Origin: a virus | Strand: one strand, 5' to 3' | IMG/VR virus record: IMGVR_UViG_3300047373_000827 | Span: 1-40,991 of that record | Length of the DNA stretch: 40,991 bases | Part shown: positions 4,578 through 24,892 of the stretch, piece after piece | How positions within the stretch are numbered: position 1 is the first letter of the stretch | Layout: each line of letters begins with the position of its first letter | Notes under the pieces: model-generated | Told to the model about the DNA's origin: nothing | The model's database searches: none | The model's input: only the letters and a program-made list of their open reading frames with translations | Made by a program: the position numbers and the translations under genes

Positions 4578-5378
4578 ATGAAAATTAGCAAACAAGAACT
4601 TATAGACATGATTAGAGATGAAGCAAAGTCTATAAAAAGGGCTACTATTCAAGAGTCAGAAGCGGTTACAGATTCAATGAACGTATACGATGTTGATATG
4701 AATTCAAATGATGAACTAGGCGACTCTGATAAAGCATTGATATATAAAGACCCTTCTAAAAAAGTAGAAAAAGAAGGCGAAATGGAAAAGATGCCAAAAA
4801 TGAACTCAAAAGACAATGTTGAAGGCTCTGACAAAAAGGCTTCGGTAGCTGTGAAAGTTGATGCTGGAGCAAAGAAAGGTGCAGATACACACACTAAAGG
4901 ACAGGCTAAAGCTAATTTTACATCTAAAAAAGATATTCAAGGAACAGATGCTTCTGGACCATTTGATGAAAGAGTTGAGGATTTAGAAATGAACTCTGAA
5001 GATAAATTGGTAGACGAAAAAGCTAAAACTTATGTTTCTGCTGGAGATGAGAAAAAAGGAAATTCTCACACCGCTGGCCAGGCTAAAGCTGAAGTTCATG
5101 AAAGAATGCCTGAAGAAGACGCTGAAGAGCCAACGGATAGGATTGCTGCTGGAATAGAGATTGATGGAAGCAATATAGAAAAAGATTTAAAAGAATCTTA
5201 TACTAAAGGAGAGTTGAAAACATTTATTTTATCAGAAGCTAAAAAGGCTGTTAAATCCTATAAAGACAACGCTAAAAAAGAACAGTTAATTAGTCAGTTA
5301 AAGACTATAGCTGAAGCAATAGAGTCCAATGGTGGCAATGTAGGTGAGGAAATAAAAGAAATATTACAAAACAAATAA
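4578..5378 (+). CDS. Acidic hydrophilic protein with CTS-like N-terminus
   Basis: 266 aa, almost entirely charged and low in hydrophobics, predicted largely disordered. The N-terminus MKISKQELIDMIRDEAKS is an amphipathic helix of the kind shared with the next gene and several others in the window. Two long repeats are visible: a K/G-rich stretch ending THTKGQAKA near residue 105 and SHTAGQAKA near residue 165, each preceded by an acidic block containing MNS(N/E)D. A second copy of the helix motif (YTKGELKTFILSEAKKA) begins near residue 208. It is 2 nt upstream of the 295-aa acidic gene, so the pair is co-transcribed. Likely virion-associated or internal protein; this is inference. Confidence 0.75.
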   Translation: MKISKQELIDMIRDEAKSIKRATIQESEAVTDSMNVYDVDMNSNDELGDSDKALIYKDPSKKVEKEGEMEKMPKMNSKDNVEGSDKKASVAVKVDAGAKKGADTHTKGQAKANFTSKKDIQGTDASGPFDERVEDLEMNSEDKLVDEKAKTYVSAGDEKKGNSHTAGQAKAEVHERMPEEDAEEPTDRIAAGIEIDGSNIEKDLKESYTKGELKTFILSEAKKAVKSYKDNAKKEQLISQLKTIAEAIESNGGNVGEEIKEILQNK

Positions 5379-5380
5379 TC

Positions 5381-6268
5381 ATGAAAATTTCAAAAGAAGA
5401 GCTTAATCAAATAATAAAAGAAGAGGCGGATAGATTTTTAAAAATACAATCTTTAAAATCTGAAAAAGAAAGAATTCAACAAGCATTGAATGAAAATTAT
5501 AGCATGGAAGAGGATGTGGAATTAGAAGATTTAGAAGATGCTGCTGAAGTTGCTGAAGAAAATCCAGAAACACCAGAAGCCAAAGAAATGGCTGCTGCAA
5601 TGAAAGAATTAGAAGCTGCTGCAAAAGAAATGTCTGATGAAGAAAAGGCTGAATTAAAGGCTGAAAACGAAGGTGTTGAAGAAAACGAAGGCATTGAAGA
5701 AAACGAAGGCATTGAAGAAAACGAAGGTGTTGAAGAAAACGAAGGCATTGAAGAAAATGAAGGCATTGAAGAAAATGAAGGTGTTGAAGAAGGTTTAATG
5801 AGCATGTTTAAGAAAGACCCGAAGAAAGGGGAGGAAGCTATAGCTCTTGCCAAGAAAGCTGTTGAAGCTGAAATAGATAAAGGTGAAATGATAGAATGGA
5901 AAGGTCTAGACAAATTAACCACTGGTCAAGTTGTTAGAGAATTGACTGATGAAGAAAAAACTAATTTAAAATCAAGAATTCAATCTTTTGTTGATAATGT
6001 ATTAACTCCTAAAAATAAATGGGATGGATTAGATGTTGGAAAACAAGATATTAGAATTGTAGAACTGAAAGGAAAGCCAACATTGGCAGCAGCATATAAA
6101 GATAGAAAAATGGCTGGTGTAAGTGGTAAGTTTACAGAAAATCATGAAGCTATTAATGAAAATGATATTAGAAAAATCTTTAGAGAAGAAGCAAGAAAGT
6201 CTGAAGAAATCAAAAAATTAAAAAAAGAAGCTAATAAAATAATTTCAGAAATAAAAAAAATAGGATAG
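5381..6268 (+). CDS. Acidic repeat protein with CTS-like N-terminus
   Basis: 295 aa. It begins MKISKEELNQIIKEEADRF, a near-copy of the start of the preceding gene. Residues about 95-136 are seven perfect hexapeptide repeats ENEG(V/I)E. After the repeat comes a folded-looking Lys-rich region (about 140-255, with MIEWKGLDKLT and ELTDEEKTNL) and a C-terminal helix INENDIRKIFREEARKS, again of the same tag type. So this protein may carry the tag at both ends. Followed by a strong bidirectional terminator. Virion-internal role is inferred from the tag and charge, not shown. Confidence 0.75.
   Translation: MKISKEELNQIIKEEADRFLKIQSLKSEKERIQQALNENYSMEEDVELEDLEDAAEVAEENPETPEAKEMAAAMKELEAAAKEMSDEEKAELKAENEGVEENEGIEENEGIEENEGVEENEGIEENEGIEENEGVEEGLMSMFKKDPKKGEEAIALAKKAVEAEIDKGEMIEWKGLDKLTTGQVVRELTDEEKTNLKSRIQSFVDNVLTPKNKWDGLDVGKQDIRIVELKGKPTLAAAYKDRKMAGVSGKFTENHEAINENDIRKIFREEARKSEEIKKLKKEANKIISEIKKIG
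5663..5788 (+). repeat. 18-bp tandem repeat, 7 copies
   Basis: Seven in-frame copies of an 18-nt unit encoding ENEG(V/I)E. Copies differ only at the V/I codon and at AAC/AAT, in the order V I I V I I V, suggesting duplication of a larger 54-nt (V-I-I) unit. Confidence 0.95.
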
Positions 6269-6290
6269 TTAAATAATTATATATTTTAAA

Positions 6291-6320
6291 AAAGCGACTT
6301 TATTAAAGTCGCTTTTTTTT
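6291..6320. terminator. Bidirectional intrinsic terminator
   Basis: Perfect 11-bp stem (AAAGCGACTTT / AAAGTCGCTTT) with an ATT loop, followed by a run of T on the plus strand and preceded by a run of A. It lies between convergent genes ending at 6268 (+) and 6338 (-) and can serve both. Confidence 0.9.
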
Positions 6321-6337
6321 TGTTTTTTTAAGTCAAA

Positions 6338-6693: not shown

Positions 6694-6735
6694 TTTTAAT
6701 TAGTGTTTTATATAAACGTAAATTTTTAAAAAATA

Positions 6736-6978
6736 TTACACATCACCAAAAATTTCTCTAAATTCTTCTGAGCTTGTTATTTGTGTAGGATAATTAATTG
6801 GACCGCCGACTGCTCTAGAGCTAATTCCGATTATAGTTGAACCAGATGTGATTAAGTCATAACTTAAAACAGTGAAATCAGTTTCTAAATGTCGAACAGT
6901 ATATTCAACACACTTTTCAATTAATAAAGTTCTTTTGTATGTCTTAATCGAGCTATCTATAAATTTTTCTACCTTCAT
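6736..6978 (-). CDS. LLIEK-tag small protein Y
   Basis: 81 aa from ATG 6978 (MKVEKFIDSSIKTYKRTLLIEK); the frame extends upstream through the trinucleotide repeat to a TTG at 7020, which would add a run of twelve Glu. The (K/R)xLLIEK motif appears near residue 16, followed by a beta-rich Ser/Thr/Gly domain (SGSTIIGISSRAVGGP). Third gene in the minus-strand series 7580-6736, whose three products all bear the motif. The frame overlaps the tail of the preceding gene in another phase; a one-base deletion would fuse the two. Function unknown. Confidence 0.6.
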   Translation of the reverse strand: MKVEKFIDSSIKTYKRTLLIEKCVEYTVRHLETDFTVLSYDLITSGSTIIGISSRAVGGPINYPTQITSSEEFREIFGDV

Positions 6979-7273
6979 TTCTTCTTCTTCTTCTTCTTCT
7001 TCTTCTTCTTCTTCTTTCAATTAATAACATTCTTTTATTTGAATTATTATTATAGTCCATATAAAACAATATACCTGTCGGCGCTTCAAGCGGTTGAACA
7101 GAAATAAGTGAATCACTTACTAAACTTGCTGCCACAGCCCCTATAAAAGGAAAGGTAATCCTATGATGTTTTTTTACCTTTTCAACAAGAAGTTTTCTTT
7201 TGTATACGTTTTCTTTTTTAGGATAAACTAAATTAGTCCACTCTTCTAAATATGACTTTATAGAATCATTCAT
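6953..7273 (-). CDS. LLIEK-tag small protein X, ends in poly-Arg
   Basis: 106 aa from ATG 7273, which overlaps the upstream stop (ATGAATGA), implying coupled translation; an upstream ATG at 7285 gives four more residues. It has VYKRKLLVEK near residue 28 and KRMLLIE near residue 85. After the second motif the frame enters the (CTT)12 tract and reads twelve Arg before a short tail NEGRKIYR. A poly-Arg end is unusual and may mark a frameshift: deleting one A before the repeat would join the protein through a Glu run to the next gene. Family not recognised. Confidence 0.55.
   Translation of the reverse strand: MNDSIKSYLEEWTNLVYPKKENVYKRKLLVEKVKKHHRITFPFIGAVAASLVSDSLISVQPLEAPTGILFYMDYNNNSNKRMLLIERRRRRRRRRRRRNEGRKIYR
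6981..7016. repeat. Trinucleotide microsatellite (CTT)12
   Basis: Twelve perfect CTT units (GAA on the coding minus strand) exactly where genes X and Y overlap in different frames. It codes for Arg in X and would code for Glu in Y's upstream extension. Confidence 0.97.
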
Positions 7274-7580
7274 TTTCCAAATCAATTAAACTACCTAATA
7301 TCCCTGCATCAATAGATGCTGCAAGTTCTGTAGCTAAAATATTAGAAAGCTCTGATTCGACATCTTTAAAGTTATAAGGTATATATTTTTCAATTATTAA
7401 CTTCTTTTTAAAAATGTTTTCAGGCTCTTCTGCCTCATAATTATTAGTATAATATTCTGAGTCTTGATAGAGCTCGGGAGTCCAACATATTCTTAATGGC
7501 CTACATTCTCCCGTCACTTCAACAGAAGTTAAATTAAGAGACAAATGTCCGCACTTTTCTATCAAAATACTTTTAGCCAT
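7266..7580 (-). CDS. LLIEK-tag small protein Z, first of three
   Basis: 104 aa, start ATG 7580. The N-terminus MAKSILIEKCGHLSLNLTSV carries the tag at residues 3-9 and a second copy, IFKKKLIIEKYIPYN, lies near residue 57. The remainder is mixed with a hydrophobic helix near the end (ILATELAASIDAGILGSLI). It opens a three-gene series with X and Y; all share the (K/R)xL(I/L)(I/V)EK motif but little else that I can see. Its stop overlaps the next start. A Bacteroidota-like promoter may lie directly ahead of the ATG. Confidence 0.65.
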   Translation of the reverse strand: MAKSILIEKCGHLSLNLTSVEVTGECRPLRICWTPELYQDSEYYTNNYEAEEPENIFKKKLIIEKYIPYNFKDVESELSNILATELAASIDAGILGSLIDLENE

Positions 7581-7585
7581 TTATG

Positions 7586-7805: not shown

Positions 7806-8531
7806 ATGAAAAATATAAATGAAAATAATAGCAACTTACCCATGGGTGCAGAGTACATGTCTGATGCACCGTGGAGAGATGGTGAAAATCAAAAAGTGGG
7901 AAAAGAAGCTAAAGAATATAAGATGGATGTAATATTTAGTGATAACAACGAAATGGCTGTTTTGCAAGATAAATCATCTGGTAAAAAATATATATTTAAC
8001 ATTTATCTTTTAGACAAAGATGAATTAGAGCCTTATGCAACAAGGAGCATTTTAGGCGTTGACTTTGATGAGGATGGAATGCCTGACGAAGAGTTGGGAG
8101 ATTGGGAAATAGACGAAGAAGTGTTAGAGAATTACATAAATGACAATTTAGATTATTTAACCACAGGAAAAGGCTTGGAAGATTATGAAAGCACTACATC
8201 TGACCTTACTGAGATAGATGACGAATTAAGAGATGAACTAAAACAGTTAGCTAGATATCAAAAAAATTCCGACTCATACTTAAAGGCTATAGATGCTGAA
8301 GACTTTAAAATAAATGAGTCAATAAGAATGATTGTAAGGGATGTAATATCTGAATCTTTGTCAAAAGATAATATACCCTTATTAAAAAAAGCTCTATTGA
8401 AACTTAAAGGAGTTTCAGAAAGTCAGTTAGAATACAACATAGAACACGGTTTACCTTGGGACTGGAAGGGTTCTAAAGAAGGTTTTTACGAAAAAATGGA
8501 ACCAAGAAGAAATTATAGTGGTTCAAACTAA
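7806..8531 (+). CDS. Acidic hypothetical protein (241 aa)
   Basis: Begins MKNINENNSNLPMGAEYMSD, an N-terminal pattern (NIN.NN.NLP) repeated in the 380-aa protein at 24910. Middle region is beta-like then strongly acidic (GVDFDEDGMPDEELGDWEIDEE, near residue 80). Near residues 168-182 it has INESIRMIVRDVISES, a tag-type helix with two (I/V)xE-Ser sites, followed by a helical region. No known domain. Its stop interlocks with that of the convergent HTH gene (4-nt overlap). Confidence 0.7.
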   Translation: MKNINENNSNLPMGAEYMSDAPWRDGENQKVGKEAKEYKMDVIFSDNNEMAVLQDKSSGKKYIFNIYLLDKDELEPYATRSILGVDFDEDGMPDEELGDWEIDEEVLENYINDNLDYLTTGKGLEDYESTTSDLTEIDDELRDELKQLARYQKNSDSYLKAIDAEDFKINESIRMIVRDVISESLSKDNIPLLKKALLKLKGVSESQLEYNIEHGLPWDWKGSKEGFYEKMEPRRNYSGSN

Positions 8532-8836
8532 GTTGTCTGCATTTTTTCTATCAAAAGTTTTTTTTCATAAATATCATAGTGTCCTTCAAACAAAAGGTCT
8601 AGTTTAGCCATTTCCTCTACGCTAAAATTGTATACGTAAACATCATTCAGCATCAATTTAATATCATCTTGTGATATGTCAATTTTTCTAGACAGGTCTT
8701 CTGTTGTCATATTTTTTTTTATCAAATAACTTTTTAGCACATCTGAGATGAAGTTACAATATGTAATAAGCTTTCTTTCCCACTCTTTACTGGGGCTGCT
8801 CCACTTGTTGTATAGATATTTTTTTAGATGTCCCAC
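8528..8836 (-). CDS. HTH-like regulator with LLIEK tail
   Basis: 102 aa. Residues about 40-85 resemble an XRE-type helix-turn-helix: KKNMTTEDLSRKIDISQDDIKLML then FSVEEMAKLDLLFE, the same spacing as Xre/Cro proteins of Bacteroidota. The C-terminus ends YEKKLLIEKMQTT, the same tag as the three proteins at 6736-7580. It starts 1 nt after the stop of the YqeY-like gene, so the two are one transcription unit. A DNA-binding role is likely; its target is unknown. Confidence 0.55.
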   Translation of the reverse strand: MGHLKKYLYNKWSSPSKEWERKLITYCNFISDVLKSYLIKKNMTTEDLSRKIDISQDDIKLMLNDVYVYNFSVEEMAKLDLLFEGHYDIYEKKLLIEKMQTT

Positions 8837-9308: not shown

Positions 9309-9746
9309 ATGAAACAGGAAATTAGGAAAATAATAAGAGAGGCACTAGGCATGGACTCAGAAACATATATAACAAAAGTAGATTTACACTTATACATGAA
9401 TGACACACTTGGCCCAGACGACTATTTTGGAGACAGCACTGCAACGGTAGAGTGGAGTTTATTTACTGATGAAAAGACATATGGATTTAGTATAATAAAG
9501 CCTAGAATTCATAAATTGACTTTAAATTCTGAAGTATATAGAGCAGCAAAAGATGTGTTTGTAGAAGATAAGTTAGAAAATATTGAAAAAGTTTATGACT
9601 TTGGCTCAGGAATTATTGACGGTAATGAGTTTGAGGGTTTTAAATTGAATATAGAAAAAAAAGAAAATTCAAACAGCTTTTATCCAACAGAGGTGTCAAT
9701 AAATGAAGATTATAAATCTATTGATATTGAATTTCAATATCCATAA
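9309..9746 (+). CDS. Unknown protein with CTS-like N-terminus
   Basis: 145 aa from ATG 9309, preferred to the in-frame ATG 9294 because that would read through the promoter-like box. The N-terminus MKQEIRKIIREALGMD is an 11-residue amphipathic helix ending I-R-E before Ala, the arrangement of T4 capsid-targeting sequences. The rest is a beta-rich domain (DLHLYMND, TATVEWSLF, FKLNIEKK, IDIEFQYP) without known relatives. Followed by three hairpins, the last a terminator. Confidence 0.7.
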   Translation: MKQEIRKIIREALGMDSETYITKVDLHLYMNDTLGPDDYFGDSTATVEWSLFTDEKTYGFSIIKPRIHKLTLNSEVYRAAKDVFVEDKLENIEKVYDFGSGIIDGNEFEGFKLNIEKKENSNSFYPTEVSINEDYKSIDIEFQYP

Positions 9747-9844: not shown

Positions 9845-10861
9845 ATGTTAACTGAATCACAAATATTAAACATAGATAACCTACTAAATGAAGCAATAAA
9901 CGCATTGTTAGAATCGGATTTGGATAAACCTTCTCCAACTTACGAGTGGGACATAGTAAAAGAGAAGGTAAAAGATTCTACAAAATCAATAAAAACGTCA
10001 GAACAAGCAAAGAAATATTTAGACACACTTATATTAAAAGCAAAAAAATTGCCTAAAAAATTAAAATTAAAAATTTTAAAATATGCTTTCGCTTCTTTAG
10101 TTGGAATATTGAGTTATGCTGAAATTCATGACTATGCATCTAAAAATGTAGATGAAATAAATGGTGAAGTTTCGACTATTGATTTAGGAATAAATTTAAA
10201 CAGTGATAACGAGAAGAAGATTGAAAAAGATGTTGATATTGATGTAAAGAAAGAAAAAATAGAAAATGTTTTTTATAATGAAATTCCAAATGATGTTTCT
10301 GATTCTTTTATGGATTTCATAAAAATCGAAGAAGGTGCTATAAAAGAAAAAGGTGAACCCGTTTTGCAAGCTTATGACTTGGGAGACGGTATGATAACTG
10401 TAGGTTGGGGTCATGCTGAAAAAAAGAGTAATTCTCAATTTAAAGTTGGAGAAAAAATAACAAGGACAAAAGCAGAGGAATTGTTGCTTAATGACTTGGC
10501 AAGTGCTAAAAATGCTGTTAATAGCGTTTTTGAAGACTGGGCGGCTGATAGCATTCCTTTCTATGTAGACCAAGACATGTACGATGCAATGGTATCAATG
10601 GCTTTCAATATGGGAAGAGGTGGCTTTAGAAGTACAAACTTCATACAACTAGTCAAAAAAGGCATGTACGAAGAAGCTAGGGATAAAATATTGTCTACAA
10701 GAATATCCTACCCAGGTCATGTGAAAAGAAGAAAAAAAGAATCGGAAATGTTTGGCAAGTCTTTGGAGTTCAATCCATTAATCTTAAGTTATAAAAAAAC
10801 AAAAAACACAATATCAGAAAATCACAAAAAAAGATTAAAAAAATTGGCTGGATTATTGTGA
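9845..10861 (+). CDS. GH24 lysozyme with N-terminal extension
   Basis: 338 aa from ATG 9845; an in-frame ATG at 9782 lies inside the terminator hairpin region and is rejected. The C-terminal half (about 152-318) is a T4-type lysozyme (muramidase): IKIEEG with catalytic Glu at 162/163, YDLGDG with the Asp at 178, and ITVGWGH with Thr185, the E-D-T triad order of GH24; then the MVSMAFNMGRGGF helix. The first 150 residues are extra relative to T4 lysozyme (164 aa): a tag-like start (MLTESQ...LLNEAINALLESDL) and a hydrophobic helix (about 79-92). It ends KKRLKKLAGLL, the second recurrent tag. This suggests a virion-associated enzyme, possibly a precursor, rather than a plain endolysin. tRNA-Ala follows. 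Confidence 0.9.
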   Translation: MLTESQILNIDNLLNEAINALLESDLDKPSPTYEWDIVKEKVKDSTKSIKTSEQAKKYLDTLILKAKKLPKKLKLKILKYAFASLVGILSYAEIHDYASKNVDEINGEVSTIDLGINLNSDNEKKIEKDVDIDVKKEKIENVFYNEIPNDVSDSFMDFIKIEEGAIKEKGEPVLQAYDLGDGMITVGWGHAEKKSNSQFKVGEKITRTKAEELLLNDLASAKNAVNSVFEDWAADSIPFYVDQDMYDAMVSMAFNMGRGGFRSTNFIQLVKKGMYEEARDKILSTRISYPGHVKRRKKESEMFGKSLEFNPLILSYKKTKNTISENHKKRLKKLAGLL

Positions 10862-13824: not shown

Positions 13825-14523
13825 ATGAATTCTATTAGAAAAATTGTTAAGGAAATTTTGGAAGAAGCCTTTTCTGGGGTGCACTCTCTAGATAGATTGT
13901 CTGAAAGGTTTTTAGATAGAAAAAATATACCAGTAGGATATGAAAAGGAAGGTTCTGTTGGAGAGTATAAAACTGTAGGAACATACAATTTAAGTGATGG
14001 AGAAAAAGAATCTATAAAAAAGAAGTATAAATTTATAGAAGATTACAAATTCCCAGAAGATGAAGATTTTGGAATAAGACTAACATATATAAAAATAAAT
14101 CCAGATGAAATAAATTATTATTCTGAAGATGATAAAATAGATTCTATAGGAAAAAACTTATTATTTGTGGATAAAAAAACAAATAGCAATGGAAATGAAA
14201 TATATGTTATAATTAGGAGAAATGAAATACAAACAATATATTTTGCCAAAAACTATATCCAACAAACAAAAGAAAAATTAAGAGTTGATAGAATAATAAA
14301 AAACGAATTATTCTTTACAAAACTAAGTGGTGAAAGTAAAAAATCTAAATCAGGAAGTAGAAAAAAAATAGAGTTAGATTTACCTAAAGTAAAAATTGGA
14401 GGAAAAGATTGGTACATAGATGAGCCAAACGAAGAATTAATATACTCTAAAAATATCAAGAAAAAAATATCTTTTGACAGATTGTCAGAAAAGCAATTTG
14501 AGGAATTAATAGAACTTATTTAA
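13825..14523 (+). CDS. Unknown protein with CTS-like N-terminus
   Basis: 232 aa from ATG 13825 (an earlier in-frame start would lie inside the divergent promoter). N-terminus MNSIRKIVKEILEEAFSG is a tag-type helix ending L-E-E before Ala. It is followed by HSLDRLSERFLDRK, then alternating beta-like and Lys-rich parts, and the C-terminal KVKIGGKDWYIDE and FDRLSEKQFEELIELI. No known domain recognised. The structured non-coding block begins right after its stop. Confidence 0.7.
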   Translation: MNSIRKIVKEILEEAFSGVHSLDRLSERFLDRKNIPVGYEKEGSVGEYKTVGTYNLSDGEKESIKKKYKFIEDYKFPEDEDFGIRLTYIKINPDEINYYSEDDKIDSIGKNLLFVDKKTNSNGNEIYVIIRRNEIQTIYFAKNYIQQTKEKLRVDRIIKNELFFTKLSGESKKSKSGSRKKIELDLPKVKIGGKDWYIDEPNEELIYSKNIKKKISFDRLSEKQFEELIELI

Positions 14524-15657: not shown

Positions 15658-17553
15658 TTAGTTGTATAATAATTTTATTAAATCTCCGAATATATTACCG
15701 TCTTTTACCTCAACTGTCTGCTCAAATTCTTTCCCATCTAAAACCTTAGATAATATTGAAGACTTTTGATTTAAAAGCTTTTCTATATCTTCATCAATTG
15801 TATCTTGACATATAAGCCTTATAATTTGTATTTTATCTGATGTGGATGACGCTCTGTGTATTCTATCTTCTGCCTGTTCTCTATCTGCACTAGTCCACGG
15901 TTGGTCAATGAATATTGAAATACTTGCCGATGTAAGCGTTATGCCGACTCCTGCTGCCCCTATCGTCCCAGAGAAGACCTTGACATTGTCATCTGTCATA
16001 AAAGCCTCTACAGCCTCTTCTTTTTTGTTTGCATTAATGTCTCCATTAAATACAACTGCTTTATCTCCGAATTTATTAGCAACTTCGTAAGAAATTCCTT
16101 TGTACTGACTAAACACAACAACTTTCTCGTCTCCGTCAATAATGTCTTGAATAAATTCAAATGCTCTTTTCATTTTTAATTCAGAAGTAAATTGTTTTAA
16201 CTTTTGAATTCTGGTTAAATGATTCATTCTATTGTCGGCATCTTGGTCGTCTTGAGCACTCTCTTCTTTTATGCCTTTTTTAATTTTGTTGTACTCTCTC
16301 ATTTCTATAGGAGTGAGCTCTACAGGTATTGCTGTATAAGTTTTTGGGGGCAAGTGTTTTAATATATCCTTTTTCAATCTCCTAAGAAAGAATGGTGATA
16401 TTTTTTCAAATAACTCATCTAAATTAGAAGCTCCACTATAATCCCATCCAAAGTTGTTTTTTTCTGCAGCACAATATTTTACCCCAAAAGAGTGAGCATT
16501 ACTCCATTCTTCTGGATAAAGGAAGTTTAGTAGAGAGAAAAATTCATAAGGCCTGCTTTTTATCGCCGTACCAGTAAGTAAAAGTTTTTCTGGTATGTCT
16601 TTTAATGTTTTCTTTGCTAACTTAGTTCTATCCGCTGAATTGTTTTTTATGTAATGAGCCTCATCCATTACAAGTATCTCATAATCAGAAGAATTAAGAA
16701 CTTCTCCCATTTTATCTGGTGTGAATGTTATGTTTTTAGTGGCCCTGGAAGTTACCATATTTCTAACTCCACAATTAGGGCAAGTCTTATCTTTGTATCT
16801 TTTTTTTCTATTTCTTTCTTTCCATCCACAAAAAACATTCTTACAAGTGTGAGACATTTCTATTGTAATATAAGTGTCTAAGGAACTATAACTTATAATG
16901 TGAAACATGGAATCAATTTTGGGATGATTTATTTTCCCCGATTTTTTAGTGGGTTTCCACTTATAAACAAAAGCTTTTTCGTTAGTAAACTTTAGTATTT
17001 CACTCCTCCAGTTTAATCTAAGATTTGCGGGACATACTATTAAAGTTTTTTTACCCTTCCAACAAGCGTAGGTCATGGCAGATGCAGTTTTACCAACACC
17101 AGGCTGGTCACCCAACAAAGCCCTTCCATTGCAGGCATCAAAAAATATTGCCGCTTGCTTTTGATAATCATACGGCTCTATTTTCATAAAAGAAAAATCA
17201 ATCTTGGAAGTATCTATATTTTGAGTTTTTATTGACAACGCTCTCAATAAAGACTCTTGCCTCTTAACAAACTCTTTCCTCAAGTGCTCAACTTCTTCAG
17301 AATTTAAATTTGTAAATTTAAAAGGGATTCCATTATCTTTTACAAAAGAAATAACTTTACCAATATACCCAGGAGATATGACTCTATACCAACTCTCATA
17401 ACCAGTGCCATCAGGATTTTGTATGTAATCTACATTTATCTTCCTTTGGTCATCTGGGAAGCTCTTAATGAAGTCACTCAAATTCTTTCTATAATTATAT
17501 TCTACTTTATAGTTAGAGTTGAGCTTTGTTATGACAATTGGGTTTGTGCTCAT
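15658..17553 (-). CDS. SNF2-type DEAH helicase with zinc insertion
   Basis: 631 aa, complete. The N-terminal 120 residues precede a two-lobe SNF2 ATPase: Q-motif-like YDYQKQAA, Walker A GDQPGVGKT (148-156), LIVCPANLRLNW (motif Ia), DEAH at 297-300, LLTGTAI (motif III), then the second lobe with VVFSQYKG, FSGTIGAAGVGITLTSA (motif V) and EQAEDRIHR (motif VI). The order resembles SMARCAL1/RapA-like enzymes and serves the branch-migration niche of T4 UvsW. Between motifs Ia and II sit two Cys pairs (C237/C242 and C258/C261), a probable zinc ribbon not usual in the core. Likely acts at forks or recombination intermediates. Confidence 0.9.
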   Translation of the reverse strand: MSTNPIVITKLNSNYKVEYNYRKNLSDFIKSFPDDQRKINVDYIQNPDGTGYESWYRVISPGYIGKVISFVKDNGIPFKFTNLNSEEVEHLRKEFVKRQESLLRALSIKTQNIDTSKIDFSFMKIEPYDYQKQAAIFFDACNGRALLGDQPGVGKTASAMTYACWKGKKTLIVCPANLRLNWRSEILKFTNEKAFVYKWKPTKKSGKINHPKIDSMFHIISYSSLDTYITIEMSHTCKNVFCGWKERNRKKRYKDKTCPNCGVRNMVTSRATKNITFTPDKMGEVLNSSDYEILVMDEAHYIKNNSADRTKLAKKTLKDIPEKLLLTGTAIKSRPYEFFSLLNFLYPEEWSNAHSFGVKYCAAEKNNFGWDYSGASNLDELFEKISPFFLRRLKKDILKHLPPKTYTAIPVELTPIEMREYNKIKKGIKEESAQDDQDADNRMNHLTRIQKLKQFTSELKMKRAFEFIQDIIDGDEKVVVFSQYKGISYEVANKFGDKAVVFNGDINANKKEEAVEAFMTDDNVKVFSGTIGAAGVGITLTSASISIFIDQPWTSADREQAEDRIHRASSTSDKIQIIRLICQDTIDEDIEKLLNQKSSILSKVLDGKEFEQTVEVKDGNIFGDLIKLLYN

Positions 17554-17591
17554 AATATTACAAAATTACAAGAAAAAAAGAAAAATTCCTA

Positions 17592-17600
17592 TATTTATAG
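17592..17600 (+). promoter_or_regulatory. Candidate promoter box
   Basis: TATTTATAG, 26 nt before the ATG at 17627, in the divergent region with the helicase gene. Confidence 0.3.
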
Positions 17601-17626
17601 GTAACAATTTTTACAAAAATAAAAAA

Positions 17627-17974
17627 ATGAAAATTACAAAAGAAGTTATCAGACAGTTAATAAAAGAATCTTACGAAGAAATGACAGCACAAGAAGATGT
17701 AAAATCTTCAGAAAGCATATTTGATAGTAAACCAGGAGAAACAGTTATATTGAACTTTGAAGGTGTTACAGTCAAAATGGAAAGACAGTTAGATGATTTG
17801 TTTAAAGTGGTAGACGCTGCAGAAAGTGAAAAACTTAAGGATGGTGACTATGTAAAAATTCAAGGGAACGATAGCCTTGTTCCTGGGAAGAGTTTCAAAT
17901 TCTTAATATATAGAGAAACGCCTTTAAAATATGAAACCAACCCATTAGAGAGTTGGAAGATTATTAAAAATTAA
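17627..17974 (+). CDS. Unknown protein with CTS-like N-terminus
   Basis: 115 aa from ATG 17627; upstream in-frame starts lie before the promoter-like box. N-terminus MKITKEVIRQLIKESYEEM: a 14-residue amphipathic helix ending I-K-E before Ser. The body is a small beta-rich domain (TVILNFEGVTVKMERQL, KIQGNDSLVPGKSFKFLIY). No family recognised. Single gene between two minus-strand operons. Confidence 0.7.
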   Translation: MKITKEVIRQLIKESYEEMTAQEDVKSSESIFDSKPGETVILNFEGVTVKMERQLDDLFKVVDAAESEKLKDGDYVKIQGNDSLVPGKSFKFLIYRETPLKYETNPLESWKIIKN

Positions 17975-18626: not shown

Positions 18627-19157
18627 TTATTTATTGTTTATATTATCGAAACCAGCCAATTTTTTCATTCTCTCATAGCTAGTGTTTATCGTTTTTTGTC
18701 TACCTCTAATCATTCTAGATTCAGATATTGGCATCATCTCTCCTTCTGGTGAGCTTTCTGCAGGCTTTTCTATTTGACCTATTTCATCAGCGTCTGTGCC
18801 TAACATAACTTGGTCACCCGTCTCTTCAGCTTCTGGCTCATACTCAACATCTCTAACTACCTGATTTAATTTATCATAAAAAACTTCATATACATCTTGA
18901 ATGTTTTTAAGAATATCTCTATTTTTATCGTTAACAACAAAGTTAGCGTCTAATATTTTAACGCCATTAATTAAAGAAAAATCCCAAGATATACTATAGT
19001 CTTTTTCTAAAAGAACAGTACCAGACCAATTAACATCTTGTCCACTATAACCTTTGTATATTGATAGTTCATTAAATTTAACTGCATAATCTTCAATTTT
19101 TTGAGTAAATTGTTTCTGCAATTCTTGAATTTCTGCTTTTGTGATTCCTGCTGTCAT
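18627..19157 (-). CDS. Unknown protein ending in SYxxRxKxLAG tag
   Basis: 176 aa from ATG 19157 (MTAGITKAEIQELQ); an in-frame ATG at 19205 would overlap the previous gene. Coiled helical N-terminus, a beta-rich middle (SGTVLLEKDYSISWDFSLINGV), an acidic linker, and the C-terminal INTSYERMKKLAGFDNINNK, which carries the recurrent SYxxRxKxLAG tag. It starts 1 nt after the stop of the gene before it. Probably a virion component; unproven. Confidence 0.7.
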   Translation of the reverse strand: MTAGITKAEIQELQKQFTQKIEDYAVKFNELSIYKGYSGQDVNWSGTVLLEKDYSISWDFSLINGVKILDANFVVNDKNRDILKNIQDVYEVFYDKLNQVVRDVEYEPEAEETGDQVMLGTDADEIGQIEKPAESSPEGEMMPISESRMIRGRQKTINTSYERMKKLAGFDNINNK

Positions 19158-19158: not shown

Positions 19159-19365
19159 TTAATTATTTTTTTTATTTTGTCCTCCGTAAAATAGTATATC
19201 GTCAAAATCTTCTTCTGTCATTCTCTTTTTTGGAGCTACTATTTTTTTTTCAGAACTAATATCTTTAGACTCTTCCATCTCCTTAGTAGGTTCTTTAGAT
19301 GTCATGTCAGAAAAAACTTTTGACACTTCTGTGTCTATTAATTGTTTCAATTCCTTTTTATTCAT
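19159..19365 (-). CDS. Small acidic/basic tag protein (68 aa)
   Basis: MNKKELKQLIDTEVSKVFSD at the N-terminus is a tag-type helix; the remainder is charged and likely disordered (KIVAPKKRMTEEDFDDILFYGG). One nt after the upstream gene's stop. No other feature. Confidence 0.65.
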   Translation of the reverse strand: MNKKELKQLIDTEVSKVFSDMTSKEPTKEMEESKDISSEKKIVAPKKRMTEEDFDDILFYGGQNKKNN

Positions 19366-19366: not shown

Positions 19367-19576
19367 TTAAATATTGTTTATCCAAAAACTTTTTTTCTCC
19401 CAGAAAAACTTATATTGTTTTATCATCATATCTTTTACAATTTTTCTAACATCTTCTTTGTCTAAAATTTTAGCCTTATTTAAAGCTCTCTCTATTTCGG
19501 TTTTTACAATCTTTTTGATTTCCGTTTTGGTAAGAGGTTTATTGTTAGATTCTGATATTACATAAAAGTCTTTCAT
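19367..19576 (-). CDS. Small protein with tag-type helices (69 aa)
   Basis: Begins MKDFYVISESNNKPL and continues TKTEIKKIVKTEIERALNK (residues 16-34), a tag-type helix, then DKEDVRKIVKDMMIKQY, a second weaker copy, and an aromatic end (FFWEKKSFW). First gene of a minus-strand set with 19365 and 19157. An exact promoter-like box sits 3 nt ahead of its ATG. Confidence 0.65.
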   Translation of the reverse strand: MKDFYVISESNNKPLTKTEIKKIVKTEIERALNKAKILDKEDVRKIVKDMMIKQYKFFWEKKSFWINNI

Positions 19577-19610: not shown

Positions 19611-20582
19611 CTAAAGATTTTTAAGCATGTCTACTAAAAGTGGACAAGGATACATATCATATTTATCCTTTCTGACGCTTGTGTGGCTCCACAACCCTTT
19701 CACTCTTCCATGATATGCATCTGCATTAAATTCAAACGCATCCTTAGGGTCTACTCCATCTTTTAAAAGTTGAGGTATTCCAGCTGTGACATCTATTTTT
19801 GGATAAATTCTAGCAACGTGTTTAATTAACAACCTTAAAGATTCAATTTGTTTTGGCGTGTATGCATGCCAATATTGATGTCCTCTAAATTTGTATCCCA
19901 AATCGCAAACCATACTTTCTGGGACTTCTACATTTACATAATTATAATATTTATCTCCTTTTTTTACTACATAGCCAAAATTGTTTACTTCAACAGCAGA
20001 TGAGTATTTTGACATGTTAAAGTTTCCAACCTTACCTAAGTGCCAGCCTATATAATCATCTGGGAAACATTCTACAACCTCACCGTCATATTTCTCATCT
20101 CCATAATGTCCTTTTCGTATACTAACTCCCCCAATACAGTATTGAGTAGCAACCCTACCTCTTTTATCTCTGTTCCAAGAGTTAATCGTATTGTAAGGGT
20201 TATTCCATCCTGCGGTATGATGTATAAAAAAGTTTTCTGGTTCTATTTTTCCATAAGTTCTAACATATTCATCAGAATCCAAATAAGCCCTATCAATCTC
20301 TAGGCCATCTTCTGTTGTGTAAGCACCCAAATATTCTAGCTTGTCATCTTTGTCGTTTGCTTCATCATATCCAAACCTATCAGTGTCTGCATCTAAATTT
20401 TCTCCTATTAGTTTTTCATAAGTTTTTGGACCAACAATTCCGTCATCTTTTAAACCTTGAAGTCTTTGATATTTTTTTACAGCCGCTTCAGTAAAGGCAC
20501 CAAATATTCCATCAGCATTCAAACCTAAAGCTTTTTGTATTTCTTTTACTTCATTTCCTTTACTTCCCTTTTTTATTAGCAT
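19611..20582 (-). CDS. N-acetylmuramoyl-L-alanine amidase with PG-binding domain
   Basis: 323 aa. Residues 1-60 are a PG_binding_1 domain (IKKGSKGNEVKEIQKALGL, then DGIFGAFTEAAVKKYQ). After an acidic linker the Amidase_2 fold starts near 116: FFIHHTAGWN with Zn ligand His121/122, VEVNNFGY near residue 200, and WSHTSVRKDKYDMYP with the second Zn ligand His300. It cuts the amide between MurNAc and the stem peptide. With the GH24 lysozyme at 9845 the window encodes two peptidoglycan activities of different specificity. Start overlaps the upstream stop by one base (TAATG). Confidence 0.93.
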   Translation of the reverse strand: MLIKKGSKGNEVKEIQKALGLNADGIFGAFTEAAVKKYQRLQGLKDDGIVGPKTYEKLIGENLDADTDRFGYDEANDKDDKLEYLGAYTTEDGLEIDRAYLDSDEYVRTYGKIEPENFFIHHTAGWNNPYNTINSWNRDKRGRVATQYCIGGVSIRKGHYGDEKYDGEVVECFPDDYIGWHLGKVGNFNMSKYSSAVEVNNFGYVVKKGDKYYNYVNVEVPESMVCDLGYKFRGHQYWHAYTPKQIESLRLLIKHVARIYPKIDVTAGIPQLLKDGVDPKDAFEFNADAYHGRVKGLWSHTSVRKDKYDMYPCPLLVDMLKNL

Positions 20583-21010
20583 TATCTTAAATTTTTATTT
20601 ATTTCATTTATACCAGCCATGCCTCTTAATTTATCTTTGTATCCTTCAAACATTTTGCCATCAGAAATCATTGACGAATCACATTTTACAATAAATTCAG
20701 ATAATTCTTTTGTAAAATCTTCTAAATTATTTTTCTTAAAATCTTCAATGAAATCATAGTTGTTAACCCCTTTCGAAAGCTCTTCAATAAATGAATTGGG
20801 GCCTGAATATTTTGTGGTGCAAAAAGATGCTTCGTTTATTTTTTGTCCTTTCTTTTTTACAAATTTGAAATCCACCCTACTTTCATTGATAGCACCAGAT
20901 AAAATATAATTATCATCAGAAAACATATCTTTATATGACATTTCAACCGTTATGAAAAGTTTGTCTTTTATTAATTCAGTTTTTATGTTGTAGTTAGATT
21001 TTGACATCAT
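20582..21010 (-). CDS. Unknown protein ending in KxRGMAG tag
   Basis: 142 aa, beta-rich first half (LFITVEMSYKDMF, ESRVDFKFVKKKG), helical second half, and a C-terminal MFEGYKDKLRGMAGINEINK, the third form of the SYxxRxKxLAG tag. Overlaps the 235-aa gene upstream by 4 nt and the amidase by 1 nt, so the group is translated as a coupled set. Family unknown. Confidence 0.7.
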   Translation of the reverse strand: MMSKSNYNIKTELIKDKLFITVEMSYKDMFSDDNYILSGAINESRVDFKFVKKKGQKINEASFCTTKYSGPNSFIEELSKGVNNYDFIEDFKKNNLEDFTKELSEFIVKCDSSMISDGKMFEGYKDKLRGMAGINEINKNLR

Positions 21011-22045: not shown

Positions 22046-22322
22046 ATAAAAATATTTCTACTTTTTTTTCCTGCTCTTCCCACCAAGCGTAAAATTTGGG
22101 ATATATATTTGTTTCGCTTATAAAAAATTTATTTATTTCTTTTTCTATTTTTATATTTTGAAACTTAAGTTCTAAATCTTTTTTTGCTTCTATAATGCTC
22201 TCGTCATGGGTATCTATATTTTTTAACTCTTTTTTTGAATTAGAAAAATCATTTTTTAACCATTTTTTTATTTCATATGAAAAATGTTTTTGATTATTAA
22301 TTATCTGACTTCTTTTATACAT
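22032..22322 (-). CDS. Hypothetical helical protein (96 aa), first of operon
   Basis: Lys/Glu-rich helical protein with an aromatic C-terminal segment (FYAWWEEQEKKVEIFLYE). First gene of the overlapping minus-strand set 22322-19611 that ends in the amidase. Unknown function. Confidence 0.6.
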   Translation of the reverse strand: MYKRSQIINNQKHFSYEIKKWLKNDFSNSKKELKNIDTHDESIIEAKKDLELKFQNIKIEKEINKFFISETNIYPKFYAWWEEQEKKVEIFLYESK

Positions 22323-22368
22323 TATGAAAACAATTTAGCTTAAGAATCATAAAAGTAAAGTTTATTGA

Positions 22369-22377
22369 TATTTATAA
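22369..22377 (+). promoter_or_regulatory. Candidate promoter box
   Basis: TATTTATAA, 20 nt before the ATG at 22398, in the divergent region. Confidence 0.35.
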
Positions 22378-22397
22378 TAAACTTTAGTTTAAATAGT

Positions 22398-22775
22398 ATG
22401 AATTTATCTGAATCTTACAGGGAAAGAATAAAGGTTCTATCTGGTGTTTTAAATGAATCAATTGATTCAAACAACTACCATTATCAAGTTAGAGATATAG
22501 GAGGTGATGTTTTTTATAAAAAACTAAAAGATGACGATTGTTGGCACTTTACTACTGAATTAGATTTTTGCAAAAATTCAAATAAAGAAAATTTAATTGA
22601 TTGGAAGAAGCCAGAACCAAAGAACAAAGACAAAGTCAAACAATTTGAAATAAATCAAGATTTAAATTATAAAAAAAATCCAATAGAAACATATAAAAGG
22701 TATTTGGAAAATGTTTGCCCCTCAGATTTCAAAATAGAGATTGTTGGAGATTGTATTAAGGTTACAAAAGATTAA
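22398..22775 (+). CDS. Unknown protein with N-terminal SYxxRxKxLSG tag
   Basis: 125 aa from ATG 22398; the in-frame ATG at 22365 lies before the promoter-like box. It opens MNLSESYRERIKVLSGVLNE, the recurrent tag plus an L-N-E before Ser. The rest includes DDDCWHFTTELDFCKNS and a small C-terminal domain (PSDFKIEIVGDCIKVTKD). Two nt before the next gene, which opens with almost the same tag. Confidence 0.7.
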   Translation: MNLSESYRERIKVLSGVLNESIDSNNYHYQVRDIGGDVFYKKLKDDDCWHFTTELDFCKNSNKENLIDWKKPEPKNKDKVKQFEINQDLNYKKNPIETYKRYLENVCPSDFKIEIVGDCIKVTKD

Positions 22776-22777
22776 TA

Positions 22778-23371
22778 ATGTTATTGAGTGAATCATATAA
22801 AAATAGACTAAAAGAACTTTCGGGATTAATCGTTTGTGACAATTGTTATCACAGTTGGCAAAAGGAAAAAGAAGATAAAGACCCAAACTTATGTCATGTA
22901 TGTGGCTTTGATTCAGAAGAGGAAGAATTTAGAGTGGAAGCTCTAAAAAAATGGTTAATAGACAAGTATGGAAGTCTACAAGAGGCATGGAGTAAAAAAT
23001 ATAAAGATTCTATAAACTGCAAAAATCCAAAAGGGTTTAGCCAAAAAGCACATTGTAAATCAAAATCTGTACAAGAAAATGTAGGACCAGGGCCATATGA
23101 TACAGTTCCTGTTTCTGATATATATATGGATATTTTCAATCAAATATTTGTCCCTAAAGATTTTAAAAGAAACTACAACCCAGATAATGAAGAATTTTGG
23201 TTTCAAAATGATTATGAGATAAAAAATCAAAAAGGCTATTCAGACAAAAAAGACGAAACTGCTGATGAGGGCGATTTGGACAAAGAGGAAGTAAAAGATA
23301 TTGATATTAATTTTCAAAAGATGAAAAGAGCTTATAATTGGAAAAATTTTCAAAAATTAAGTGGACATTAA
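22778..23371 (+). CDS. Zinc-ribbon protein with SYxxRxKxLSG tag and KGFSxKAHC module
   Basis: 197 aa. MLLSESYKNRLKELSGL at the start; then a zinc ribbon C20-DNC-23 with C39/C42 (CHVCGFD); then DKYGSLQEAWSKKYKDSINC and KNPKGFSQKAHCKSK near residue 90, a Cys/His module I know as a small conserved unit in marine phage proteins. It ends FQKLSGH, a reduced tag. The protein thus has a tag at both ends and two metal-binding-like units. Convergent overlap of 15 nt with the nuclease gene. Confidence 0.7.
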   Translation: MLLSESYKNRLKELSGLIVCDNCYHSWQKEKEDKDPNLCHVCGFDSEEEEFRVEALKKWLIDKYGSLQEAWSKKYKDSINCKNPKGFSQKAHCKSKSVQENVGPGPYDTVPVSDIYMDIFNQIFVPKDFKRNYNPDNEEFWFQNDYEIKNQKGYSDKKDETADEGDLDKEEVKDIDINFQKMKRAYNWKNFQKLSGH

Positions 23372-24211
23372 ATCTATTTTTTGATTCCCAACATTATTAC
23401 ACAATTTATAGTTATCTTTGAATGGACAATCTTTACAAGATTCTTTTCTTTTTTCTAACTTTGCTTTAGTAAAAGTTTTTTTAATAAAAATATCTCTAGT
23501 AGTTTTGGCCAAATCTTCTAAAACCTCTTCCATTAAACTAGGCTCAGTTTCTATTGTAACATTTTGAATTGAGCCATATTCATCTTTTTGAGTTATCCCT
23601 TTAATTCTATTTAAAACAACATACTTACATTCTATATTGTCAAATGGTATATTTTTTTTAGAGCTATAAAAGTATTTATAAAACATCATTTGAGACATAA
23701 ATATCTTATCCTTTTTTCTCTCTTCAACATCCCAAGGTAAAGTTGATGTTTTCCAATCTATTATAACATACTTGTTAGTTGATTTTTCTTTTAAAATTAA
23801 GTCTATAAAACCCACAAAAGAGTAATTTCCATACATAGGTTCTACAATTAATTCCTCAGCACCAATAAAAACATATTTCTCGGACAGCCTTTCCGTGGGT
23901 ATTATTTTTAATATTGATATACCCTGGCTTACGAATTCATCTAACTGATGATACTCTGGGTAGTCTCTCATGTTATCCATAACCGCCTTTTTGAACATAT
24001 ATGTAAAATTATCTATACGTTCACCTTCGTCCAGCTTGTATTCTATTCCCTTCCTAAGGGAATCGTGAATAGCATCCCCAAAATATGCATGTATAGAAGG
24101 TATAAAATCTTTAGTCTTTATTATGTTTTCCAGATAATATCTATGACCACACTCTTTATATCTAACATATTTAGAATAGCTCATTTTTATGTTTTTTGAA
24201 TATGATTCCAT
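23357..24211 (-). CDS. Cas4/RecB-like PD-(D/E)XK nuclease, Fe-S type
   Basis: 284 aa from ATG 24211 (in-frame ATGs at 24217 and 24229 also exist). The nuclease core is visible: GDAIHDSL near 44 (His in motif I), GFIDLIL with Asp136, and IIDWKTS with D151-x-K153. One Cys near the N-terminus (C21) and three near the C-terminus (C259, C262, C271) are arranged like the 4Fe-4S ligands of Cas4 and AddB. No CRISPR array or other cas gene is visible, so a role as an exonuclease in recombination or DNA processing is more likely than adaptation. Confidence 0.85.
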   Translation of the reverse strand: MESYSKNIKMSYSKYVRYKECGHRYYLENIIKTKDFIPSIHAYFGDAIHDSLRKGIEYKLDEGERIDNFTYMFKKAVMDNMRDYPEYHQLDEFVSQGISILKIIPTERLSEKYVFIGAEELIVEPMYGNYSFVGFIDLILKEKSTNKYVIIDWKTSTLPWDVEERKKDKIFMSQMMFYKYFYSSKKNIPFDNIECKYVVLNRIKGITQKDEYGSIQNVTIETEPSLMEEVLEDLAKTTRDIFIKKTFTKAKLEKRKESCKDCPFKDNYKLCNNVGNQKIDLMST

Positions 24212-24249
24212 AATCATGCAATATATCAAAATATTTACAAAATTCCAAC

Positions 24250-24258
24250 TATTTATTT
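24250..24258 (+). promoter_or_regulatory. Candidate promoter box
   Basis: TATTTATTT, 13 nt before the ATG at 24272. Confidence 0.3.
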
Positions 24259-24271
24259 AATAGCTCGCATT

Positions 24272-24892
24272 ATGAAAAAATTTATATCAGAAATATTAAA
24301 AACTGAACTTATGGAAGTTATGATTCTAAAAGAATCTAAAGACTTAATTAGTGAAGGTTTGAAGTATCACATAAACAATAATATCAGTGTTCACAATTCT
24401 GTATATAGATATGCATCTGAAAAGCATATAGATTTAATAAATGAAGTTAAATTATTATATGTTAAAAATAATATTGTACTTTGTGAAAGTGATGAAGAAA
24501 TAATTAAAAGTGATGCTGGGACGTATGGAGAATATAGAGGTGAGTTAGTTCCTTTGGATTTGCCATTTGAAAATCAAGATTATAATTTAAAAGAAGCTAC
24601 CTATCAAGGCAAAAAAGTAAAACTAAACAAACCAAAAAGGGGAGGTAGTAAAAAGTTTTATGTATTTGTAAAAGACCCTAAAACTGGTAAGGTTGTAAAA
24701 GTTTCTTTTGGGGCAAAAGATGGTGGGGGTAAGTTAGCAGTTAAACTTAGAGACCCTGACGCAAGAAAAAGATTTTCTGATAGACATAATTGTAAAGAAA
24801 AAAATGATAAAACTACTCCTGGATACTGGTCTTGTAGACTTCCTAGATATGCAAAGATGCTTGGACTTAGCGGTGAAGGTAAGTGGTGGTAA
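24272..24892 (+). CDS. Protein with PGYWSCRLP module and CTS-like N-terminus
   Basis: 206 aa. N-terminus MKKFISEILKTELMEVMILK continues into ESKDLISEG, containing several (I/L)xE sites before Ser or Gly. The C-terminal half (from about 118) is a compact basic domain: KRGGSKKFYVFVKDPKTGKV, VSFGAKDGGGKLAVKLRD, RKRFSDRHNCKEKND, PGYWSCRLPRYAKMLGL. I recall this Cys/His-containing domain as a recurrent module in marine phage proteins of unknown role. Followed after 17 nt by the next gene. Good candidate virion-internal protein. Confidence 0.75.
   Translation: MKKFISEILKTELMEVMILKESKDLISEGLKYHINNNISVHNSVYRYASEKHIDLINEVKLLYVKNNIVLCESDEEIIKSDAGTYGEYRGELVPLDLPFENQDYNLKEATYQGKKVKLNKPKRGGSKKFYVFVKDPKTGKVVKVSFGAKDGGGKLAVKLRDPDARKRFSDRHNCKEKNDKTTPGYWSCRLPRYAKMLGLSGEGKWW

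Follow-up and report, generated by a model that had tools for sequence, protein, structure and literature searches.

A set of otherwise unrelated proteins encoded on a fragment of viral DNA, the IMG/VR record IMGVR_UViG_3300047373_000827 (positions 1 to 40,991, all of which were analysed and are here called the window), carry one or both of two short terminal peptides. The first, M1, is an N-terminal amphipathic leader that resembles the capsid-targeting sequence (CTS) of phage T4. The second, M2, reproduces the C-terminal tail of a gp22-like scaffold protein and occurs at either protein end. Judging from sequence, it is probable (about 0.72) that the tagged proteins are passengers of the prohead core, entering by imitation of the scaffold ends and trimmed by a gp21-type protease. 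The occurrence of two kinds of end tag on unrelated proteins suggests a shared address code for head loading in a group of T4-like marine phages.

In the proposed mechanism, a terminal peptide that copies an end of the scaffold (core) protein would cause the protein bearing it to be taken into the assembling head. M2 would be a copy of the scaffold C-terminal tail, usable at either terminus, and M1 a CTS-like leader whose likeness to scaffold N-termini was judged by eye only; T4 gp22 starts MLKEQLIAE↓A, much like the internal protein IPIII, MKTYQEFIAE↓A (↓, cleavage position). A gp21-type protease, maturing the head, would then cut at (I/L)xE beside the tag and free the body inside. Packaging of the tagged proteins is likely; binding to core or coat, and cleavage, we infer; injection and the functions of the bodies are guesses only.

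The window is a linear record with 30.7% G+C, containing tail-like and replication genes and many small unnamed genes. Its tail-type protein 36454-39105 led to 17 loci in other virus contigs (61-96% identity), including G001 (a 232,514-base record), with which much of the gene order is common, and G002 (138,334 bases); five further related contigs, G003 to G007, are partial and shorter. Relatives among named phages are distant. For instance, an SbcCD-like window protein matches seven records, the best being Microcystis phage Mel-JY01 at 26%, and the top-ranked matches of the G001 capsid protein are LR756508 (an uncultured 484-kb phage) and Flavobacterium phage immuto, at 34-35% over 97%. Immuto (MW353176, host Flavobacterium sp. 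LMO8) is an isolated phage and carries both tags; its tagged genes include 25470-25865, 111631-112095, 113144-113902 and 123534-124616, with candidate sites LSE, ITE, IKE or IAE, and its scaffold gene is 125582-126823. Open reading frames (ORFs) below 45 codons (below 40 at the protease loci described below) were not called, and starts are the guesses of a simple caller.

A tag copied from the scaffold tail

The preliminary description of this DNA, which dwelt on N-terminal leaders, also mentioned further copies at internal or C-terminal positions. These copies are present and give the stronger signal. They define M2 as [ILV]xE-x(n)-R(M/L/F)(K/Q)xL(A/S)G, the C-terminal end of the gp22-like scaffold of the clade; its gene was identified by position, after the gp21-like protease and before gp23 or the reverse, and by the acidity of the product. 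The scaffold C-termini are ALYENKEVARMKLLAGINKTLNS in G001, ILNESNNVVERMKKLAGIVK in Mel-JY01 and IISEVSEQVSRWQKLAGIIK in immuto, and the gene before gp23 ends LERIKRLAGL in RM378; looser ends occur in LR756508 (ILNEDVEMKSRMQKLADIS, RMQKLADIS) and LR756511 (LDTLKTLAGRKAK, LKTLAGRKAK). The scaffold of immuto, Mel-JY01 and related contigs, with its C-terminal xE...RMKKLAGI, would be the source of M2; the window proteins have its tail and not its body. Among the best 80 of at least 590 virus loci with the protease, one of which (L174) belongs to the G001 species, 59 had no gp23 by our own profile in the stretch fetched and were excluded from the scaffold count. In the remaining 21, the gene just upstream of gp23 ends in the tail in every case, with [ILVM]xE before it in 20 and 19 distinct 20-mers.

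A composite motif, [ILVMF]xE-x(2-9)-[RK]x[KRQE]x[LM][AS][GN], matches 29 of 824 ORFs at the protease loci, where 1.4 are expected. All but one of these have scaffold-type N-termini with the motif at the C-terminus; the other match lies near the C-terminus of a different protein (L189 24-836). The window has five matches in 52 ORFs (0.08 expected, shuffle maximum 2), C-terminal on a lysozyme and on 20582-21010 and N-terminal on 22398, 22778 and 26055. No match was found in T4, P-SSM2, phi14:2, pT24 or SPO1, and single internal matches in Mel-JY01, LR756508, RM378 and G004 look like chance. Terminal M2 of the RxKxLAG type was found on 6/52 window ORFs (0.08 expected, at most 1 in 100 shuffles), on 7/249 in G001 (0.25 expected) and on 3-6 in each of G003 to G007 (0.09-0.14 expected), while each contig has 0-3 internal copies, 0.3-1.5 being expected. 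The tagged features are as follows.

9845 to 10861, + strand: phage lysozyme (Phage_lysozyme, E 2e-20) with an M1-type leader (LLNE↓A) and the C-terminal scaffold-type tail ISENHKKRLKKLAGLL at 10811-10858
18651 to 18671, - strand: RMKKLAG, C-terminal scaffold-type tail of the 176-residue protein 18627-19157; ISE↓S lies 16 residues upstream (7 sequences)
20612 to 20653, - strand: C-terminal tail MFEGYKDKLRGMAG of the 142-residue protein 20582-21010, a weaker match (motif and alignment)
22404 to 22445, + strand: N-terminal scaffold-type tag LSESYRERIKVLSG of protein 22398-22775, with VLNE↓S after it (motif and alignment)
22784 to 22825, + strand: N-terminal scaffold-type tag LSESYKNRLKELSG of protein 22778-23371, a zinc ribbon by eye (motif and alignment)
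26058 to 26099, + strand: N-terminal scaffold-type tag LSESYIKRSQELAG of protein 26055-26648 (motif and alignment)

The lysozyme tail is kept in all five aligned sequences; with head-entry-type tags at both ends, this T4-lysozyme-type protein may be a virion-borne lysozyme rather than a lysis enzyme. The 18627 protein is modelled, with a mean predicted local distance difference test score (pLDDT) of 61, as a folded body and a C-terminal helix (146-168), residues 102-153 being of low confidence. In the 22398 family, G006 24990 as called begins without the tag. No scaffold appeared in the blastp clusters of the tagged bodies, apart from a low-complexity acidic similarity of 5381. The tagged genes are under purifying selection, the ratio of nonsynonymous to synonymous substitution rates (dN/dS) being 0.04-0.23 in six window-G003 pairs, two of them with saturated dS. 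Codons vary between tag copies, so the likeness is one of peptides; a DNA-level repeat as the source of the tags is ruled out on the same ground.

N-terminal leaders

All the leaders listed in the preliminary description, at 9309, 13825, 17627, 24272, 4578, 5381, 19365 (-) and 19576 (-), are present, and its comparison with T4 capsid targeting stands, in that a short leader is common to otherwise unrelated proteins.

9309 to 9341, + strand: M1 leader MKQEIRKIIRE↓ of the 145-residue protein 9309-9746 (6 aligned sequences; structure model)
13825 to 13866, + strand: M1 leader MNSIRKIVKEILEE↓, then A, of the 232-residue protein 13825-14523 (6 sequences)
17627 to 17668, + strand: M1 leader MKITKEVIRQLIKE↓, then S, of the 115-residue protein 17627-17974 (7 sequences)
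24272 to 24334, + strand: N-terminal region of the basic 206-residue protein 24272-24892, containing the sites FISE and ILKE↓S, then LISE (one relative aligned)
4578 to 5378, + strand: acidic protein with an M1-type helix (6 sequences)
5381 to 6268, + strand: acidic protein with an M1-type helix, cleavage site unclear (relative of G001 150915-151484)
19159 to 19365, - strand: 68-residue protein MNKKELKQLIDTEVSK... with an M1-like helix and no clear site (sequence)
19367 to 19576, - strand: 69-residue protein MKDFYVISE↓SNN... (sequence)

The further claim that these leaders end in (I/L)xE, a putative cleavage site, followed by A or S is supported for part of the set. In the 9309 family (n=6) M1, E4, R6, I9, R10 and E11 do not vary, and E11 is followed by A or S; the ORF was called from 9294, the start common to the orthologs being 9309. 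The 17627 family keeps [LI]I[KR]E↓S in seven sequences, most orthologs starting at the 17627 Met where the ORF was called from 17519 or 17531. Agreement is looser in the six sequences of the 13825 family, with the junctions ILEE↓A, ILKE↓A, VIKE↓V, IIQE↓A and IIKE↓S, and the sites of 24272, whose body matches phrog_7595 (E 7e-12), are kept in its sole aligned relative, G001 223264. The claim is not supported at the helix end of 4578, and 5381 and 19365 have no clear site. The 5381 protein matches G001 150915-151484 (blastp E 1.7e-13, partly through low-complexity acidic sequence), which lies near head genes, has a C-terminal scaffold-type tail and carries both tag kinds at once.

In the model of the 9309 protein (mean pLDDT 79.5), a poorly placed, low-confidence helix (2-12) precedes a beta body that begins at residue 20. 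Nothing in the PDB matches this body at E<=0.001 (best 0.12); predicted viral proteins include three matches at that threshold, two nameless and one uncharacterised.

The M1 pattern matches 6/52 window ORFs against 0.52 expected, with at most three in 100 N-terminal shuffles. As the pattern was written after the sequences had been seen, relatives offer a better test of its recurrence. G001 has 12/249 (2.4 expected, shuffle maximum 6), G003 to G007 have 5-9 each (0.8-1.0 expected), LR756508 has 27/760 (6.8 expected, maximum 16) and immuto 9/224 (2.4 expected, maximum 7). M1 is unenriched in T4 (5/269, 3.1 expected), Mel-JY01 (5/244, 2.6) and RM378 (0/168, 1.7).

These counts bear on the very improbable view that the repeats are an effect of chance or composition in a low-GC proteome rich in Lys, Glu and Ile. 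Shuffles do yield M1-like strings, at 0.5-7 per proteome, and single M1 leaders may have arisen by chance. A chance origin is contradicted for M2, whose terminal copies lie far above the shuffles and are biased to protein ends; the tags are conserved among orthologs, and the crAss-like control phi14:2 has no M1 (1.1 expected) and no terminal M2.

A second rule was derived from T4, namely [LI]xE[AS] with the Glu at residue 8-24 in proteins of at least 60 residues, compared with the equal distance after an internal Met; its p values are uncorrected over 16 genomes. The window gives 6/51 against 6/136 after internal Met, an odds ratio of 2.9 at p 0.07 on small numbers, and for the window and the partial contigs G003 to G007 taken singly the odds ratio lies between 1.7 and 5.2 (p 0.006 to 0.30). 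Enrichment at p<0.05 was found in six of eight phages with an S77 protease (G001, immuto, LR756508, T4, P-SSM2 and pT24) and in neither of two without it (phi14:2 and SPO1). As a calibration, the rule marks 16 T4 proteins, of which six are known gp21 substrates (IPI, IPII, IPIII, gp22, gp68 and gp24, which we take to be T4 107323-108606), and it misses gp67, gp23 and gp21. With this 6/16 precision single leaders are untrustworthy alone, and the rule is suggestive rather than diagnostic. The substrate status of the T4 proteins is from PMC9958956 and PMC5694885; here and below, statements cited by PMC number refer to the portions of those papers that were accessible.

The leaders of LR756508 are by eye of two kinds, MKLTERKLRNLVKEVLKES and MVKFKSLLFESDR; the latter resembles MAKINELLRE↓S of T4 gp24. 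The same genome, for example at 178453-181405, 297444-299021 and 333260-337887, encodes many unnamed, often adjacent proteins with T4-like leaders of the form M..(F/L)..LLxE(S/A/D).

Protease, maturation sites and head genes

The preliminary description called for a search for a gp21-like protease and took the lack of one as refuting its reading; the two long relatives, G001 and G002, do have it. Peptidase_S77 lies over the cut-off in these two (115.8 bits; they also have gp23, at 250 bits) and in immuto, Mel-JY01, LR756508, LR756511, RM378, P-SSM2, pT24 and T4. It has no match in the 41-kb window, in the five shorter, partial contigs G003 to G007 among its seven relatives, or in phi14:2 and SPO1, and LR756501 has sub-threshold matches only. 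Candidate gp23 maturation sites, found by pattern after LLENQ in 20 of 21 loci, agree with the leader junctions: LDE↓A occurs seven times, IDE↓S four times, IDE↓A and ISE↓S twice each and five others once each, ISE↓S and LNE↓V being among the types found.

The leader rule marks 4/8 genes of the immuto head cluster against 11/216 elsewhere (p 0.0008), and 3/7 when the scaffold is set aside (p 0.006). In the G001 head cluster 4/17 genes are tagged against 14/232 elsewhere (p 0.03). Among the head genes of Mel-JY01 (PP395634) there is also a ribosomal protein S21 gene (22183-22410), as in the Bacteroidetes phages of PMC9723584.

Alternatively, the tagged proteins might be further scaffold or core components, consumed in head maturation rather than delivered to the host; the tags would work as proposed, and the bodies would act in assembly or be digested. 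Both the 5381 protein and its relative in G001, which lies near head genes, are scaffold-like and acidic, the three sites of 24272 could allow repeated cutting, and T4 gp67 and gp68 are degraded core proteins (PMC9958956). A lysozyme and a zinc-ribbon-type protein would, however, be odd as scaffold, and the 9309 family models as a body apart from its tag, as does the 18627 protein at low confidence. We consider this alternative unlikely, if worth keeping in view.

Exchange of the two tags

Leader and scaffold-type tag replace each other in two protein families. The 22778 family search gave nine loci, which are relatives of the 61-99% class already in the group. The scaffold-type tag is found by pattern in the window, G001, G003 and G006 and by eye in G007, and two relatives have leader-type starts, G004 40370 (MKYIRNIVREVMLE) and, by eye, G005 32374 (MKEIRKIIREVLSE). 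Their bodies are common: window residues 70-193 match G004 40370 (49% over 128 residues, E 5e-37) and residues 98-192 match G005 32374 (38% over 95 residues, E 3e-17). The zinc ribbon is not common to these two relatives. A 469-residue protein at G004 37122-38531, with a zinc-ribbon-like start (MSFLKE...), also clusters with the family.

The 26055 family has the scaffold-type tag by pattern in the window, G003, G005 and G007 and by eye in G004 and G006. In G001, residues 656-834 of the 836-residue protein 219567-222077 match 26055 residues 17-195 (76%, E 1e-100); this protein is without the scaffold-type tag and begins MNIRNIIRET. Both tag kinds stand together on the lysozyme 9845-10861 and on G001 150915-151484.

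This replacement of M2 by M1 on common bodies speaks against a reading in which M1 leaders are ordinary amphipathic helices with another role, such as dimerisation or membrane or partner binding, and M2 alone is head-related. So do the enrichment of the leader rule in phages with an S77 protease and its absence in the two without, the concentration in the immuto head cluster, and two conserved junctions, I-R-E↓A/S at 9309 and LI(K/R)E↓S at 17627, in the respective families. In favour of another role are the helix-end sites, not conserved at 4578 and unclear at 5381 and 19365, the low T4 precision, a pattern drawn from the data, and Mel-JY01 and RM378, which lack leader enrichment. On balance another role for M1 seems quite improbable.

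Relation to known systems and weight of the evidence

In T4 the CTS is present on IPI, IPII and IPIII (Mullaney and Black 1996, via PMC9958956 and PMC9026906). Within IPIII, residues 4 and 7 serve targeting and residues 8 and 10 processing (PMC9026906), so targeting and cutting are separable. The window proteins are like this system in their short N-terminal leaders, which in part of the set end in (L/I)xE followed by A or S, and in their unrelated bodies; an S77 protease and a gp22/gp23-type head occur among the relatives. They differ in offering more candidates and in having a second, scaffold-tail tag at either terminus, which was not found in T4. Neither T4 internal protein nor Alt families were among the matches of the window proteins scanned. 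An ADP-ribosyltransferase-like look, by eye, of LR756508 223149 and Mel-JY01 62056 was dropped, having no Pfam or PHROG support.

Other phages provide partial parallels. The DarB protein of P1 likewise has an N-terminal peptide that sends cargo, and also a reporter, into the head; P1 differs in that no scaffold protein is identified and no scaffold-tail copy described in the accessible text of PMC9024508. In SPN3US and phiKZ-like phages several head proteins, likewise, have propeptides cut by the prohead protease, and there are ejection proteins (PMC5694885, PMC10052503). There, however, most propeptides exceed 100 residues, the sites are of types such as AVE and ALE, and, by the same accessible text, the gp22 counterpart is unconfirmed. 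A description of a scaffold-tail tag was not found in the literature, in a search of few terms that left subscription papers mostly uncovered.

Several observations weigh against core packaging as proposed here. No recognised head gene is present in the 41-kb window, so the scaffold of its own genome is unseen. In Mel-JY01 and RM378 both protease and scaffold tail are present, yet the leader odds ratios are 0.9 and 1.2 and there is no extra terminal M2, and LR756508 has leaders but terminal M2 on just 2/760 ORFs (0.77 expected), its scaffold ending RMQKLAD, not LAG. The three composite matches in immuto equal the shuffle maximum of three, and internal M2 exceeds expectation in G004 (3, 0.62 expected), G005 (2, 0.58) and, slightly, G007 (1, 0.58). 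With the scaffold set aside, the G001 head cluster shows no clear concentration of tagged genes (3/16 against 14/232, p 0.09). Orthologs of 4578 begin MIRDEA, MIRTEA, MIKEEA or MIKQEA, keeping the helix and not an (I/L)xE at its end; a later site, (I/L)(Q/K)E↓(S/A) at about residue 27, is conserved. T4 internal proteins are basic, whereas the tagged bodies are not basic as a set, and basic bodies were discarded as a class feature (median net charge -0.4 per 100 residues against 0.6 for untagged proteins). The N-terminal half of the account is weaker than the C-terminal half because the T4 CTS is absent from other core proteins (PMC9958956). Finally, no virion proteomics was found for this phage group; the terms 'mass spectrometry' and 'LC-MS' and the name immuto were not found in the accessible text of PMC7077304.

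The suggestion of a capsid-packaged set in the preliminary description is nonetheless favoured by leader recurrence, the protease in relatives and the scaffold link, which makes capsid targeting more likely; its assumption of a conserved (I/L)xE does not extend to every leader.

A cassette of capsid and tail-sheath pieces

On the - strand at 6736-7580, three small ORFs contain gp23 and tail-sheath segments linked by YKRxLLIEK peptides (M3).

7266 to 7580, - strand: ORF A, two stretches of gp23 with a KKKLIIEK insert between them (E 4e-10 with our own gp23 profile; 5e-21 for the copy in G007)
6953 to 7273, - strand: ORF B, KRKLLVEK, the gp23 N-arm, FYMD followed by a second M3, and lastly poly-Arg encoded by a triplet repeat (gp23 profile, E 1.4e-13)
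6736 to 6978, - strand: ORF C, RTLLIEK followed by a stretch similar to the tail-sheath N-terminus (E 1.8e-6 with our own sheath profile; 1e-9 for the copy in G005)
Copies of the cassette: G003 80274-80961, G004 57599-58524, G005 about 16540-17752, G006 40108-40687, G007 25232-26342

The gp23 profile is without T4, whose start was missed, and the Mel-JY01 sheath starts short in the sheath profile. The cassette was not seen in G001, nor ORF B in G003; in G006 ORFs B and C are fused at the peptide. A single-sequence search with ORF A gave one locus, a known relative. ORF C was at one point guessed to be gp21, from GISSRAVGG; by profile it is closer to tail sheath (E 1.8e-6) than to the protease (9e-4), and the G004 and G005 copies contain SPGVYIRE. 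One alignment places the ORF B repeat at the gp23 maturation-site position, although by eye it could also match the LLENQ motif of gp23. T4 gp21 has an LLIE near its own N-terminus, noted as LIE-9 in PMC9026906. Six comparisons gave a dN/dS of 0.29-1.18 for the cassette, and six gave 0.04-0.23 for the tagged proteins; one of the cassette comparisons sets ORF B against the fused G006 ORF, so that the pair is not cleanly orthologous. The cassette therefore changes fast or is loosely constrained.

A broader and rather doubtful proposal would take in this cassette. The address code would be open, so that any protein with a copy of one or other scaffold end, at either terminus, could enter the head, and the cassette would be a polyprotein of virion-protein mimics that follows the same route, is cut at LLIE↓K peptides and acts as a decoy or competitor of another phage's assembly.

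At about 6980-7015 (-) a GAA/AGA triplet run encodes the poly-Arg of ORF B; read in another frame that overlaps it, the run gives poly-Glu. Also on the cassette side, 8528-8836 (-) encodes a small helix-turn-helix protein (HTH_26, 24.1 bits for the window copy) with a KKLLIEK-type peptide near its end and copies at G003 about 79029-79328 and G004 56322-56558. Elsewhere in the window, the basic proteins 24910-26052 and 24272-24892, with DUF5824 and phrog_7595 matches, lie beside tagged genes.

Implications

How certain proteins reach the T4 core 'remains mysterious', according to a 2023 review (PMC9958956). A copy of the scaffold tail used as a tag would be a concrete answer to the problem of core entry, as passengers would bind where the scaffold binds. 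It would also provide a rule for picking out head-packaged proteins in unannotated phage genomes, and, being usable at both protein ends, such a tag would extend head-loading tools past the N-terminal leader of T4.

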